From NCBI GenBank assembly GCA_947498155.1, contig CANMJD010000001.1, positions 248,001 to 312,000 of the forward strand: a stretch of DNA of 64,000 nucleotides, written 5' to 3'. Each line of letters starts with the position of its first letter. Position 1 is the first letter of the stretch. The translations under genes and the position numbers were made by a program. This DNA comes from an uncultured Pseudoruegeria sp. (GTDB taxonomy: Bacteria > Pseudomonadota > Alphaproteobacteria > Rhodobacterales > Rhodobacteraceae). Positions 2,291 through 54,770 of the stretch are shown in pieces. Under the pieces are notes generated by a model, which ran no database searches, was not told the DNA's origin, and worked only from the letters and a program-made list of their open reading frames with translations.

Positions 2291-3828
2291 GTAAAAGCAT
2301 CCTCCACGGCGGCCTTCTTTTCGGCAACAAAGGCTTGCAAGGCCGCCAAAATGTCCGGATCCATCGGCGGTTGCTGGTAGGTATCCAGTAGCTTTTGCAC
2401 CCGGATCGTTGCCAGCGTACTGCTATCGCGCGCGCCCTCTTCGTCCCAGGTTTCAAAGGGCTTATAATCCAGAACCTCGGTCCGCCAAAACGCGGTTTTA
2501 AAATTGCGTTGGGTGTGATCGCAGCCCAGAAAATGCCCGCCGGGTCCGACTTCGCGCAGGGCGTCCATGGCCTGCGCGTTCTCATCCATCGCTACCCCTT
2601 TGGCCAGATGATGCAAAACCCCCAGTTGGTCTGCATCGAGCACGAATTTCTCGAAAGAGGCCACCAGACCGCCCTCAAGCCAACCACAGCCATGTAGCAT
2701 GAAGTTTACCCCGCCCAGCAAGGCAGCATTCAGCGTGTTTGCTGTTTCATAGGCGGCCTGTGCATCCGGCAGTTTAGAGCCGCAAAGCCCCCCGCCCGAA
2801 CGGAACGGCAGATTCATGCGCCGCGCCAACTGCCCCGCGCCATTCAGGATTTGCGTCGCTTCTGGCGTCCCAAAGGTCGGCGCGCCGGAATTCATATCGA
2901 TCGAGGTCACAAAAGCCCCGAAAATGACCGGTGCACCGGGGCGCACCAGCTGGCTATAGGCGATCCCTGCCATCGCTTCGGCTAATACTTGAGTCAATGT
3001 ACCAACGACCGATACAGGTGCCATCGCCCCGCCAACGATAAACGGCGATACAATGCAGGCCTGATTATGCGCGGCATAGACTTCAAGCGCGCCCATCATC
3101 ACGTCATCAAAGGTCAGCGGCGAGTTCACATTGATCAGAGAGGTCATCACGGTGTGATCCCGCACAAAATCCTTTCCGAACAGGATTTCGCACATCTCTA
3201 CCGAATCTTGGGCGCGGCTGGGGTCGGTGACCGATCCCATAAAGGGTTTGTCCGACAGGGTCATATGCGCCAGCAGCATATCCAAATGGCGTTTGTTCAC
3301 CGGTACATCGGTCGGCTCGCAGACGGTACCGCCGGAGTGATGCAGCCATTTCGACATGTAACCGAGTTTCACAAATTTCTGGAAATCAGCCATTGTCGCA
3401 TAGCGGCGACCGTTTTCGTCACGCACAAAGGGCGGGCCGTAAACCGGTGCTATCACAAGGTTATTACCGCCGATCACCACGTTCTTTTCGGGATTGCGGG
3501 CGTGTTGGGTAAATTGCGATGGGGCTGTGGCGCAGAGTTTACGCGCCAGCCCGCGCGGAATGCGCACGCGCTCGCCGTCAATCTCGGCACCGGCGTCTTT
3601 CCAGCGGGCCAATGCGGCCGGATTATCGGGGAAATTCACCCCGATTTCCGCCAGAACGGTTTCGGCGTTGGCTTCAATGATCTGCAGCGTTTCTTCGCTT
3701 AGGAGTTCCAGATTTGGAATCTTCCGCTCGATATATTTGGCGGTTTCAAAGGAAACAGCGGTGCGCTCCGCACGGCGTGCGGCACCGCCGCCTCCGCGGG
3801 CCCGACGGCGGGGTTCTGCTGCTGTCAT
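2287..3828 (-). CDS. trimethylamine methyltransferase family protein (MttB superfamily, non-Pyl)
   Basis: 513-aa ORF with MttB-family sequence (GVNFPDNPAALARWKDAGAEIDGERVRIPR...; GAPTFGTPEATQ); no in-frame amber codon. Confidence 0.9.
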   Translation of the reverse strand: MTAAEPRRRARGGGGAARRAERTAVSFETAKYIERKIPNLELLSEETLQIIEANAETVLAEIGVNFPDNPAALARWKDAGAEIDGERVRIPRGLARKLCATAPSQFTQHARNPEKNVVIGGNNLVIAPVYGPPFVRDENGRRYATMADFQKFVKLGYMSKWLHHSGGTVCEPTDVPVNKRHLDMLLAHMTLSDKPFMGSVTDPSRAQDSVEMCEILFGKDFVRDHTVMTSLINVNSPLTFDDVMMGALEVYAAHNQACIVSPFIVGGAMAPVSVVGTLTQVLAEAMAGIAYSQLVRPGAPVIFGAFVTSIDMNSGAPTFGTPEATQILNGAGQLARRMNLPFRSGGGLCGSKLPDAQAAYETANTLNAALLGGVNFMLHGCGWLEGGLVASFEKFVLDADQLGVLHHLAKGVAMDENAQAMDALREVGPGGHFLGCDHTQRNFKTAFWRTEVLDYKPFETWDEEGARDSSTLATIRVQKLLDTYQQPPMDPDILAALQAFVAEKKAAVEDAFT

Positions 3829-10041: not shown

Positions 10042-11008
10042 GATCCTGTTGCCCGCCGCTGTTTTGCTGGCGGGCTGTGGGGCCTATGTCGATCAACGCG
10101 CCGACACGCGGGAAATAGCCACTGAAAAGGCCTATCCGCCGATTGGCCAGATTCTGATGGTGGAGGGCACGCCGGTGCATGCCGTGGTTCAGGGGCACGG
10201 GCCGGATTTGATCCTGATCCATGGTGCCAGCGGCAATGCGCGGGATTTTACTTTTGATTTTGTCGATCGGTTAACCGACCGCTACCGCGTGATTGTCTTT
10301 GATCGCCCCGGTTTGGGTTATACAGGGCGCATTGATGCGGCGGTTAATGACCCCGATGGGGCACGGGCCGAAACCCCGTCTGAACAGGCCATCCTGCTAG
10401 AGGCTGCCGCCCGTCAACTGGGGGTCAAGCAAGCCATCATTCTGGGCCAAAGCTATGGCGGGGCGGTTGCGCTGGCCTGGGGGCTGGAGCGTCCGGACAC
10501 CGCCGCCGCTCTGGTTCTGGTTTCGTCTGTCAGCACGCCCTGGGAAACCGATCTGGGCGGGTGGTACGCGCTGATGGACAGCCCGCTTGGCCCAAATGTG
10601 GTGGCGCCGCTGGTCTCTGCCTTTGCGCCGGATCGCAGTGCGGATTCGGTCCTTGAGAATATCTTCGCCCCACAATCCGCGCCAACGGGCTATGCCGATT
10701 ATGTAGGCGTTGGGTTAACTGTGCGGCGTGAGACATTGATTTCAAACGCCAATCAAGTGAATTCATTGCTCGATTACATCACCCGCCTGCAACCCTATTA
10801 TCCAGATTACAGCCTTCCGATCGAAGCGGTGCATGGCGACGCGGATGAGATCGTACCCTATGCGCTCCATGGAGACGGGTTGGATCAGCGCCTGACCACG
10901 CTGAACATGACCAAACTGCCGGGCATCGGACATATGCCCCATCATGCCGCCCCCGATGCCGTGGTCAGCGCGATTGACCGCGCCGCTGCGCGCAGCGGAT
11001 TGCGTTAA
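10016..11008 (+). CDS. alpha/beta hydrolase, putative lipoprotein
   Basis: Lipobox-like [15 protein letters not shown]; nucleophile elbow GQSYGG; overlaps metA by 26 nt. Confidence 0.85.
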
Positions 11009-49677: not shown

Positions 49678-51261
49678 TTAGGAAGACATCAGATGTCCGA
49701 CGCGCGCTTTCAACTGATCGCGCACAGTGTCGTACGGGCTATCCGGTTCATCCTGATCCAGAAGCTGCGGGAACAGGGTCAACAGTTCTTCGCGCATTTC
49801 CGGGGCCAAACCTTCGATGGTCTGACGGTTCGGATAGAAGCTTTCGGTTTCCACGCCTTCGGCGTAAATCACCTCGTGGTTATCAAAGGCTACGTGAAAA
49901 TAAACCACGCGCTTATCGCCCTCTTCGACCCGGATCGTGCTGTCGTTGCACAGGGTGAAGGCCGGCGTCAGAACCCCTTCGGGATCGCCAAACATCATTT
50001 CCGCCCGCCAGTCACGGACCAGGAAACGGTGCTGCCGCGATACACGCAGATCGCGTTCGGGCAGGTTCTTACCAAGGCTGCCTGCGGCAAAGCGGATGGG
50101 CTTCAACGTCGGTTTAAGCGCCATAATATTAGGCTCAACCGGCGAACTGCCGATCCACTTGATTTTCTGCGCGCCATGGTCGCGGGTAACAACGCGGTCG
50201 CCTTCGGCAAGGTCTTCGACATTGACCGGACCACTTGGTGTCAAAATTTGCGTGCCTTCAACAAAGCAGACAACCACCGCAATCGAGAGATCATTGGTGA
50301 TTGATTGCGTATTCGGATCTTCGCCAAAGATGGCAGTGACCTGCACGTCCAGTATTTCACCGGGCATCAGATTATATTCCGGATACTGGGTCAGATCGAG
50401 GCAGTCCAGCGCCCACCCCGCAGGCGTGAGGATAATACGGGCATCTGGAAGTTCGATATACTCGGCAAGCTGGCCTTCGATGTAAATTTCGAAACCCTGA
50501 AAATCGACTGGAACGAGTGGTTCAATAACAACGTCTAGCAATTGCTGACCAGACGTAATCAGAACCGCATCGCCCGTCGCAACCGTATCCAGAGCAGACT
50601 CCGAGGCATTGGCCCCCAAGGCCAAAGCAATGATGTTGGCGTTGAAATCGTCTTCCAAATCTCGCGCTGGCGTATCAAAGTCCTGTCCTGAGGGGTAAGG
50701 CACACCATCTGACATGAAAATGACCAGGTTGGAATCTGTATCTGCGACACCATCACCAGTCCAGGCGGTATCCACGGCCCCAAGCGCGGCTTCATAGTTC
50801 GTTTGTCCTTGCGGCCCTTCAATGTCCATCTGAACCAGTTCGGCGATAAAATCAGTGCCTTCGGAAAGATTATATGTGCCACGATCCGTCGCGGTGGTGC
50901 TGTAGTCAATAATCGTGATATTCACTTCATCGGCTGTATAGCCCGCATCAATCCACGCTTGAAACAGGTTCTCGGCGGCATAAAGCTGCGCTTGTAGGAT
51001 TGTTTCATTGGTGCCGTCGTTATCAAAATCGGTACCGGAGTCACCAGCCGTTGAACCGGATGTGTCAATAACCATCGCAATGTTGATCGTTTCCGATACA
51101 TCAGTGGCCGTCAGGTTGACACTCAACTCCGACGCGTCATCGGTTGAGGGATACCCTAGGGTAGATTCAAGTTGTACGTCAATATCGCCGTTCGGACCGC
51201 CATCGATCAGGCCAGTGTCCGTATCGGTGACATTGTTCGGGTTCGCTGGATTCGCTACCAC
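49678..51261 (-). CDS. vWA domain - Hint (Hedgehog/intein-like) domain protein
   Basis: MIDAS AMVIDTSGSTAGD; Hint start CFVEGTQILTPSGPVNVEDLAEGDRVVTRDHGAQKIKWIGSS; GTG start at 51261 preceded by GGAGG on the minus strand. Confidence 0.87.
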   Translation of the reverse strand: MVANPANPNNVTDTDTGLIDGGPNGDIDVQLESTLGYPSTDDASELSVNLTATDVSETINIAMVIDTSGSTAGDSGTDFDNDGTNETILQAQLYAAENLFQAWIDAGYTADEVNITIIDYSTTATDRGTYNLSEGTDFIAELVQMDIEGPQGQTNYEAALGAVDTAWTGDGVADTDSNLVIFMSDGVPYPSGQDFDTPARDLEDDFNANIIALALGANASESALDTVATGDAVLITSGQQLLDVVIEPLVPVDFQGFEIYIEGQLAEYIELPDARIILTPAGWALDCLDLTQYPEYNLMPGEILDVQVTAIFGEDPNTQSITNDLSIAVVVCFVEGTQILTPSGPVNVEDLAEGDRVVTRDHGAQKIKWIGSSPVEPNIMALKPTLKPIRFAAGSLGKNLPERDLRVSRQHRFLVRDWRAEMMFGDPEGVLTPAFTLCNDSTIRVEEGDKRVVYFHVAFDNHEVIYAEGVETESFYPNRQTIEGLAPEMREELLTLFPQLLDQDEPDSPYDTVRDQLKARVGHLMSS

Positions 51262-51639
51262 ATTTACCTCCAATCGCGGCGCTCTCTGCACAGGCGCGCC
51301 GCAAATACTACATTACTCGCTACAACGGATAGGTATCCGAAATCAGCAGACAAATTCGGTTTATTGATCAAAGTTATACATCAACTTGGAGCTAATTCCT
51401 ACGAAATACGGCAAAACAGTGGCACAGTTACAAGAGGAAAACCGCCCCATTGAAGTGGATGCGAAAACAATGATCACGTTTGCACATGATCGTTCCCATC
51501 CAAGAAATTCGCCGCCACAATTCAGTCATCATCCGAATTTCATTACAAAATGTGATTCGCCTTTCTTTTCTATCCATACCGTCCCGCTTTTTCACCAAGG
51601 ACAACCGAGACGGTATCCCCCCCTATCCGCTTGCATCCC

Positions 51640-51990
51640 CACCGCCCTGCGCCTATCTATGTTGTGTCGGTTCGCCGACTATGGACATAAACGCGCTCGT
51701 AATAAGCGGATCGGACCCGGGGGCGGTACCCGGCGTCTCCACCAAACATCCTTCGTTTGAGGATCACGGGGACGAAATAGGATCGACGGACGTCTAAAGG
51801 GGTTAGCTTTGTCTCGGTGAGATACCACCGTTATCGGTTCAATAAAGCTAGTTGCAAACGACAACAAAGCTCCGATGGCTCTGGCTGCTTAAGCAGTTCG
51901 AAACATCGAAATCTTAAGTCCTAGCGCTTTGCAGCCCTAGGCGGGGTCCGCAGGTACCTGGCAACAGAAACCTGCACTTTCCAACCCGAT
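51640..51990 (+). ncRNA. ssrA: circularly permuted two-piece tmRNA (ends approximate)
   Basis: Acceptor piece with GGACCCGGGGGCGGTACCCGGCGTCTCC-ACCA ending 51744; hairpin GTCGG-TTCG-CCGAC 51666-51679; spacer 51745-51767; coding piece from GGGGACGA (51768); tag ORF 51854-51892 = ANDNKAPMALAA*. Confidence 0.94.
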
Positions 51991-52060: not shown

Positions 52061-52137
52061 CGGGGCAAGGGGATCCGCGATTTCCCCGTGAGGCTCAGGC
52101 CGAAACATCGCATCCACTGACCTCTTTCTCAGAAAGG

Positions 52138-52962
52138 ATGCCCATGCCTGCGCCCAATGAAATTTCCCCCGCTCAACTGATGCGCCTTCTTGGCACGCCC
52201 AATGCCCCCGTGATCATCGATGTCTGTATCAATTCCGATTTTGATCAAGATCCCCGGGTCATTCCGACTGCCCGCCGCTGGGCTCATAAAGACATCCTCA
52301 ATCTGCCCGAAAACGTGAAGGACCGGCACATTGTTGTCCTGTGCCAAAAGGGCTTAAAGCTTAGTCAAGGCGCCGCGGCCCTCTTACGTTCCGAAGGGAT
52401 CAATGCAGAATATTTGGAAGGCGGGAACCATGGCTGGATAGCGGCAGGGTATCCAATGACTCCGGTCGAAAAACGTCCCGCGTTGTCTCAACATGGATCG
52501 CGATGGGTGACGCGCCATCGCCCCAAAATCGATCGGATCGCAGTGCCCTGGTTAATCCGGCGCTTTGTCGACCCTGAGGCATCGTTCCTCTTTGTCAGCC
52601 CTGCGACCGTAGAAGCCGTGGCAGAAAAATTCGATGCAATTGCGTTTGACATCGAAGGGGTAGCCTTTAGCCATCATGGTTCGGCATGTACTTTTGATGC
52701 GGTGCTGTCGGCGTTCTGCCTGCATACCGCTCCGCTTGCCAGAATGGCCACCGTCATACGGGCGGCTGATACCAATCGCCATGACCTTGCGCCCGAAGCT
52801 GCAGGCTTACTTGCACTGTCGGTGGGTCTTTCGCGGCAATACAAAGATGACCAACAGCAACTGCAGGCTGGTTTCGCTCTTTATGATGCACTGTATCGAT
52901 GGGCAAGAGACGGGCACACCGAAGGTCACGACTGGCCCACAGCAACCGGAGGTGCATCATGA
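52138..52962 (+). CDS. rhodanese domain fused to chromate-resistance (ChrB C-terminal) domain
   Basis: Rhodanese loop VVLCQKGLKLSQG; ChrB-like SRWVTRHRPKIDRIAVPWLIRRFVDPEASFLFV; start may be 52144. Confidence 0.85.
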   Translation: MPMPAPNEISPAQLMRLLGTPNAPVIIDVCINSDFDQDPRVIPTARRWAHKDILNLPENVKDRHIVVLCQKGLKLSQGAAALLRSEGINAEYLEGGNHGWIAAGYPMTPVEKRPALSQHGSRWVTRHRPKIDRIAVPWLIRRFVDPEASFLFVSPATVEAVAEKFDAIAFDIEGVAFSHHGSACTFDAVLSAFCLHTAPLARMATVIRAADTNRHDLAPEAAGLLALSVGLSRQYKDDQQQLQAGFALYDALYRWARDGHTEGHDWPTATGGAS

Positions 52963-54218
52963 CCACGCCATCTTTGCGCGACGCGCTTTTGATCTATGGC
53001 CGCATTGGCCTTTTGTCCTTTGGCGGACCGGCGGCGCAAATCGCAGTGATGCACCGCGAGCTGGTCGAAGAACGCCCATGGCTCACCGAGCAGCAATTCC
53101 TGAACGCCCTGTCCTTTTGCATGTTACTGCCCGGCCCCGAAGCCATGCAGCTTGCCACCTATGCCGGATGGCGCACCCATGGCACGCTCGGTGGCCTTTT
53201 GGCTGGGTTGTTGTTTGTGCTACCCGGTGCGGCGGTCGTTCTGACCCTGTCGATAATCTATGCCTACACCGGTCAGGTGCCGATGATGCAGGCGCTGTTT
53301 CTGGGGATTAAATCCACCGTTGTCATCATTGTGCTTCAGGCTTTGCTAAAGGTGTCGGGCAAGGCCCTGATCTCAACCTCGCATTGGGTCATCGCCGCGC
53401 TGGCCTTTGTGGCGATCTATGCGCTGCAATTGCCGTTTCCGTTGATTATCCTCTTGGCGGGCGGGTTTGGGTTTCTAAGCGCGCAGCAGACAGCCAGCCC
53501 GCCGCCGCCCGTGCACGGCAAGGCAAAGCTGCCGCAAACCCTTGCGATCTGGTTAACGCTGTGGTGGGCACCGATTGCCCTGCTTTGGGTTTCGGGCCAG
53601 ACTTTTCTGACCGAGCTTGCGCTGTTTTTCTCAAAACTGGCTGTTGTCACCTTTGGCGGCGCCTATGCGGTGCTGGCCTATATGACCCAAGCGGTTGTGG
53701 TCGAAAACGGCTGGCTTAGCACGGGTCAGATGATGGACGGGCTGGGACTGGCGGAAACCACGCCGGGGCCGCTGATCCTTGTGACCGAATTTGTCGGCTT
53801 TCAGGCCGGTTTTGCCGAACAGGGGCTCGGGATGGCCGTTGCGGCGGCCTGTGTCACGCTCTGGGTAACCTTTATCCCCTGTTTTCTATGGATTTTCGCC
53901 GGTGCCCCCTATCTGGAATGGATCACCGCGCGCCCCCGCCTGCGCGGCGCGCTTCAGGCGATTACCGCCGCTGTGGTCGGGGTGATCCTGAACCTGTCGC
54001 TCTGGTTTGCGCTGCATGTTTATTTTGACAGCCTGAGCCCCACGCCGTTTTTGGGACGCAGTCTCTTGTTGCCCGATCCGGCATCGCTGAACATCACCGC
54101 GATTGCGCTTTCGCTCCTTGCGGCTGCCCTGCTGCTGCGGTGGAAACTTGGATTGCTCAAGGTCATTGGGATCATGGCGATTGCCGGTGTGGCAACGGTG
54201 GGAATTGGCGGGCTTTAG
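52959..54218 (+). CDS. chrA: chromate efflux transporter ChrA
   Basis: IGLLSFGGPAAQIAVMHRELVEERPWL; duplicated CHR domain; ATGA overlap with preceding gene. Confidence 0.93.
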   Translation: MTTPSLRDALLIYGRIGLLSFGGPAAQIAVMHRELVEERPWLTEQQFLNALSFCMLLPGPEAMQLATYAGWRTHGTLGGLLAGLLFVLPGAAVVLTLSIIYAYTGQVPMMQALFLGIKSTVVIIVLQALLKVSGKALISTSHWVIAALAFVAIYALQLPFPLIILLAGGFGFLSAQQTASPPPPVHGKAKLPQTLAIWLTLWWAPIALLWVSGQTFLTELALFFSKLAVVTFGGAYAVLAYMTQAVVVENGWLSTGQMMDGLGLAETTPGPLILVTEFVGFQAGFAEQGLGMAVAAACVTLWVTFIPCFLWIFAGAPYLEWITARPRLRGALQAITAAVVGVILNLSLWFALHVYFDSLSPTPFLGRSLLLPDPASLNITAIALSLLAAALLLRWKLGLLKVIGIMAIAGVATVGIGGL

Positions 54219-54293: not shown

Positions 54294-54770
54294 ATGACTC
54301 GGACGATTGAGTACGGTAACCTCATGCATGACGCGATGCGCGGCTTGATTAAACAGGTTCTGCAGGATGTCGCCGACCACGGATTGCCCGGCCAGCATCA
54401 TTTTTTCATTACCTTTGATACGCTGCATCCCGATGTAGAGCTGGCCGACTGGCTGTCAGACCGCTACCCCGGTGAAATGACCGTGGTCATGCAACATTGG
54501 TTCGATAATCTTGACGTCGGCAACGAAGGCTTTGGCGTCACGCTGAATTTCGGCGACCAACCCGAGCCGCTCTATATCCCCTATGATGCGATTGTGACCT
54601 TTGTCGATCCCTCGGTAGAATTCGGCCTGCGCTTTGAAACGCAGGGCGAGGACGAAGAAGATGATTTCGAAGAGATCATCGAAGAGGCCCCCATGGCGGA
54701 GTTTGACACGCCAGAGGTTGAAGAAAACAAAGAGGCCGAAGTGGTTAGCCTCGATAGCTTCCGCAAGTAA
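54294..54770 (+). CDS. sspB: ClpXP adaptor SspB (alpha-proteobacterial type)
   Basis: HHFFITFDTLHPDVELADWLSDRYPGEMTVVMQHWFDNL ... LYIPYDAIVTFVDPSVEFGLRF; acidic C-terminal tail. Confidence 0.92.
   Translation: MTRTIEYGNLMHDAMRGLIKQVLQDVADHGLPGQHHFFITFDTLHPDVELADWLSDRYPGEMTVVMQHWFDNLDVGNEGFGVTLNFGDQPEPLYIPYDAIVTFVDPSVEFGLRFETQGEDEEDDFEEIIEEAPMAEFDTPEVEENKEAEVVSLDSFRK

Follow-up and report, generated by a model that had tools for sequence, protein, structure and literature searches.

On the plus strand of the window (the whole 64,000-nt stretch of DNA that was analyzed), the Rfam model alpha_tmRNA (RF01849) matches positions 51627-51978 with a score of 317.6 bits against a gathering cutoff of 50 bits (cmscan, E = 7.4e-92), and the match spans model positions 1-355 of 355. 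ARAGORN independently called a permuted tmRNA (tmRNA*) at 51652-51983 with the tag ANDNKAPMALAA. The merged model tmRNA_permuted (RF04321; PMC11915505) also matches the locus end to end, at 152.8 bits (cmscan); RF01850 and RF01851 are not listed for the locus, in an output that retains only the best of related families. Upstream, a minus-strand gene (49678-51291) points away from ssrA; its product combines a von Willebrand A-like domain with Hint_2 at the C terminus (Pfam, 175 bits). Downstream of ssrA lie a chrB-a RNA (RF03078) at 52064-52146 (+; 63.5 bits, cmscan), a rhodanese-ChrB gene at 52138-52962, a chromate transporter at about 52956-54218, and sspB (SspB-alpha; Pfam SspB, 151 bits) at 54294-54770 (+). 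A first-pass annotation had proposed a permuted two-piece tmRNA gene at 51640-51990 and had named an alpha-tmRNA covariance search and ARAGORN as checks; both call the locus, as they routinely do for such a gene, and the identification and its placement were borne out. Only the start shifts: the conserved block begins at about 51627, and the transcript's own conserved 5' hairpin at about 51665.

The gene plan is permuted, with the acceptor piece upstream of the coding piece and a short spacer between them. Based on the Rfam alpha_tmRNA match and conservation, the acceptor piece occupies 51665-51744 (+; 5' end approximate) and comprises the 5' hairpin, the 3' half of the tRNA-like domain, the T arm, CGTCTCC, an A, and CCA at 51742-51744. 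The spacer (51745-51767, +) is defined by sequence, fold, and comparison across 97 loci; it is 23 nt long, its ATCCT/AGGAT hairpin folds at -4.6 kcal/mol, and it is the intervening sequence predicted to be removed in processing. The coding piece (51768-51978 by Rfam, to 51983 by ARAGORN; +) opens with GGGGACGA and carries the GGGGACG acceptor strand, the 5' half of the tRNA-like domain, the pseudoknot region, the tag frame, and a 3' hairpin. GGGGACG pairs with CGTCTCC in the 7-bp acceptor stem that joins the two pieces, including the pair G3-U70. The tag frame itself (GCA...TAA, 51854-51892, +), supported by ARAGORN, by translation, and by the same tag in other Rhodobacteraceae, translates to ANDNKAPMALAA. 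The landmarks given in the first-pass annotation had all been read correctly: a script check confirmed that CGTCTCC-A-CCA ends at 51744, and the hairpin-bearing spacer, the start of the coding piece complementary to the acceptor 3' end, and the tag codons lie where they had been placed. The full tmRNA fold was not recovered by two-strand cofolding of partial pieces; the thermodynamics of fragments ignore pseudoknots and the conserved core, which makes such folding uninformative, and structure was judged from the covariance model and from covariation.

Covariation among relatives is clearest at the fifth pair of the acceptor stem, which is A-T, C-G, T-A, or G-C and complementary in every relative locus read (in named Rhodobacteraceae loci, C-G in 39, T-A in 15, and A-T in 12). 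The third pair, by contrast with this variable one, is G-T (G3-U70) in 66 of 66 named Rhodobacteraceae loci; a G3-U70 wobble marks an RNA for alanyl-tRNA synthetase. Spacers are mostly 21 to 26 nt long across the 97 loci, and in 99% of these they fold more stably than the mean of their own shuffles (mean, -6.0 versus -2.6 kcal/mol), so conservation extends to the hairpin of the spacer that processing would remove. When the CCA-spacer-GGGG junction was searched for as an exact DNA pattern, 3 of 21 distant relatives gave a match; a pattern this strict cannot serve to count the family. That the motifs were assembled by chance in an intergenic gap would fit the lack of a convincing open reading frame there and has no other support, whereas the E value of 7e-92 for the Rfam match and the compensatory changes in relatives speak against it. 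We consider such an origin of the tmRNA landmarks vanishingly improbable and excluded it on the covariance match, the single genomic copy, and the presence of the gene in relatives.

The tag frame is open and encodes 12 residues, with a hydrophobic -AA end and a TAA stop; the first Ala of the "(A)ANDN..." form is supplied by the charged tmRNA and not by tag codons. Of the 59 named Rhodobacteraceae loci in which ARAGORN made a call, 7 carry ANDNKAPMALAA, as do further loci, and the commonest tags in the family are ANDNRAPVALAA and variants. The tag had been described as a close variant of known tags, which was right about the relationship and understated it: the exact tag is common in Rhodobacteraceae, and ANDNKAPMALAA is an ordinary tag of that family.

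The host genome (3.7 Mb in 17 contigs, 99.97% complete) yielded a single ssrA match in a whole-genome search; no second ssrA was found at this level of completeness, in agreement with the expectation that no rival copy exists elsewhere. One smpB is present (181 bits, G000:C5:121024-121449). Since alpha_tmRNA is present in 49 of 49 relatives' genomes of at least 90% completeness, ssrA of this type is a standard gene of the class. In principle the working gene could lie elsewhere and the locus be an ssrA copy that has decayed or fallen silent, or a remnant that a mobile element left behind, and in one relative's genome (G015) part of a second ssrA does lie 7 kb from an intact one. Here, however, the single copy in the genome is full length, its helices are intact, and its tag frame is open; a remnant with a working gene elsewhere is contradicted by this single intact copy, and we regard it as highly improbable. 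The sequence, structural conservation, copy number, and presence of smpB and sspB were observed directly. We are close to certain that the locus is a functional, single-copy, circularly permuted ssrA, the functional side of this reading drawing on its family.

In the 97-locus alignment, the otherwise unconserved upstream sequence holds two conserved blocks: CCCCTTG, which ends at about 51634, and CCTATAT, at about 51652-51659. A scan with the sigma-70 consensus, which fits alphaproteobacteria poorly, found no promoter. Judging from their conservation, the blocks are probably the -35 and -10 elements of the ssrA promoter (51629-51659, +), with a CTTG-type -35 at about 51630-51634 and a CTAT(A/C)T -10 at about 51652-51659. 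If so, both the Rfam match and the ARAGORN call take in promoter DNA at their 5' ends, and the transcript would begin near 51665.

tmRNA frees stuck ribosomes and tags unfinished proteins for destruction, and the permuted form of its gene, with a two-piece product, is textbook knowledge. The ssrA of Caulobacter crescentus, on which Keiler, Shapiro, and Williams worked in 2000, is reportedly the type example of two-piece tmRNA. The present locus shares with the alphaproteobacterial two-piece tmRNA (RF01849) the acceptor-spacer-coding order, all conserved elements, the ANDN...AA tag class, and the presence of SmpB; it shows no difference of kind from that class, and what is its own is a lineage-specific tag center (KAPMAL) and spacer sequence. 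Beta- and cyanobacterial permuted tmRNAs (RF01850 and RF01851) have the same permuted gene plan but belong to other lineages and differ in sequence detail. The locus is thus a canonical, intact alphaproteobacterial ssrA and an ordinary member of a thoroughly described family; genes of this kind have been described since 2000, and databases hold about 12,000 unique sequences. The result gives a correct annotation for the sole ribosome-rescue RNA of this genome.

By analogy with other members of the family, from which we infer its transcription, processing, charging, tagging, and the degradation that follows, transcription would yield a single precursor in which the acceptor half precedes the coding half, and the spacer between CCA (51744) and GGGG (51768) would be cut out to leave two RNAs. 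The 7-bp acceptor stem and other tRNA-like helices would hold these together, and alanyl-tRNA synthetase, recognizing the G3-U70 pair, would charge the CCA end. The RNA would then enter, with SmpB, ribosomes stalled on broken mRNA, where translation would move to the internal frame and append (A)ANDNKAPMALAA, a tag that SspB-alpha and ClpXP would be expected to recognize. RNase P and tRNase Z have been suggested as the processing enzymes in a summary of the Caulobacter work (PMC3985003).

The adaptor gene sspB, which is not part of the RNA and whose product presumably hands ssrA-tagged proteins over to ClpXP, lies on the same strand as ssrA, 2.3 kb downstream. Its product is related in sequence to PDB entries 2qas and 2qaz (deposited as "SspB Protein") and 2nys, a set that we take to include the Caulobacter SspB-alpha adaptor for ssrA-tagged proteins. 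In 48 alphaproteobacterial genomes, a single contig carries both ssrA and sspB; sspB follows downstream in the same orientation within 10 kb in 44 of these, within 5 kb in 41, within 500 nt in 22, and within 200 nt in 18. In 8 further genomes the two are on different contigs; since some of these genomes are fragmented drafts, each may be a real exception or may simply carry no information on the linkage. Starting from sspB, ARAGORN placed a tmRNA upstream on the same strand, and nowhere else in the locus, in 59 of 80 named Rhodobacteraceae loci; a sequence pattern adds an upstream ssrA in 8 more (about 67 of 80), and several of the remaining loci end early at contig ends. Two genes placed at random in a 3.7-Mb genome would show this order and orientation within 10 kb in far below 1% of cases, and we accordingly take the linkage to be real and old. 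A statement of it was not found in the literature searched, which lay outside the primary Caulobacter and SspB-alpha papers (e.g., Lessner, Venters, and Keiler 2007, J. Bacteriol.), and we make no claim of novelty for it.

In 54 of 66 named Rhodobacteraceae loci with ssrA upstream of sspB, the two genes are separated by a chromate transporter, with chrB as well in 23. In the window, the chrB-a RNA, the only one in the genome, overlaps the start codon of the rhodanese-ChrB gene and is a candidate leader that would regulate the chromate operon in cis. We tentatively suggest, as a possibility that we would not favor, that alphaproteobacterial ssrA and sspB form a conserved, co-oriented pair under selection, perhaps co-transcribed where gaps are 50 to 200 nt, with tag and adaptor co-evolving as a unit, and that a gene or operon for chromate transport has come to separate the two in Rhodobacteraceae. 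It is also conceivable, if rather doubtful, that the locus is a real permuted ssrA and at the same time part of one trans-translation and degradation cluster with sspB, with possible read-through at short gaps: the 44 of 48 genomes with a same-strand downstream sspB within 10 kb, 18 of them within 200 nt, and the upstream ssrA in some 67 of 80 named loci point that way, but inheritance alone can keep a linkage without function. Because chr genes with their own chrB-a leader intervene in this window, co-transcription of ssrA and sspB is unlikely here. The linkage might matter a little as a natural test of co-evolution between tag sequence and adaptor pocket.

The second ssrA piece in G015 (L032) is on the minus strand; the two matches are at 3195-3346 and 10235-10582, with a 7-kb segment parting the intact ssrA from the remnant. 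The remnant starts at the T loop, and its acceptor end and spacer are fused to the 3' end of a coding piece at a CTTTGGG repeat; it is 100% identical over 40 and 46 nt. Defense-gene models gave no match to four open reading frames of the insert, and among the part of its reading frames scanned against family libraries, an integrase was not identified and one AAA ATPase was. The arrangement looks like the outcome of an insertion into the T loop of a permuted ssrA, by an element that brought a replacement gene, with later shortening of the displaced copy.
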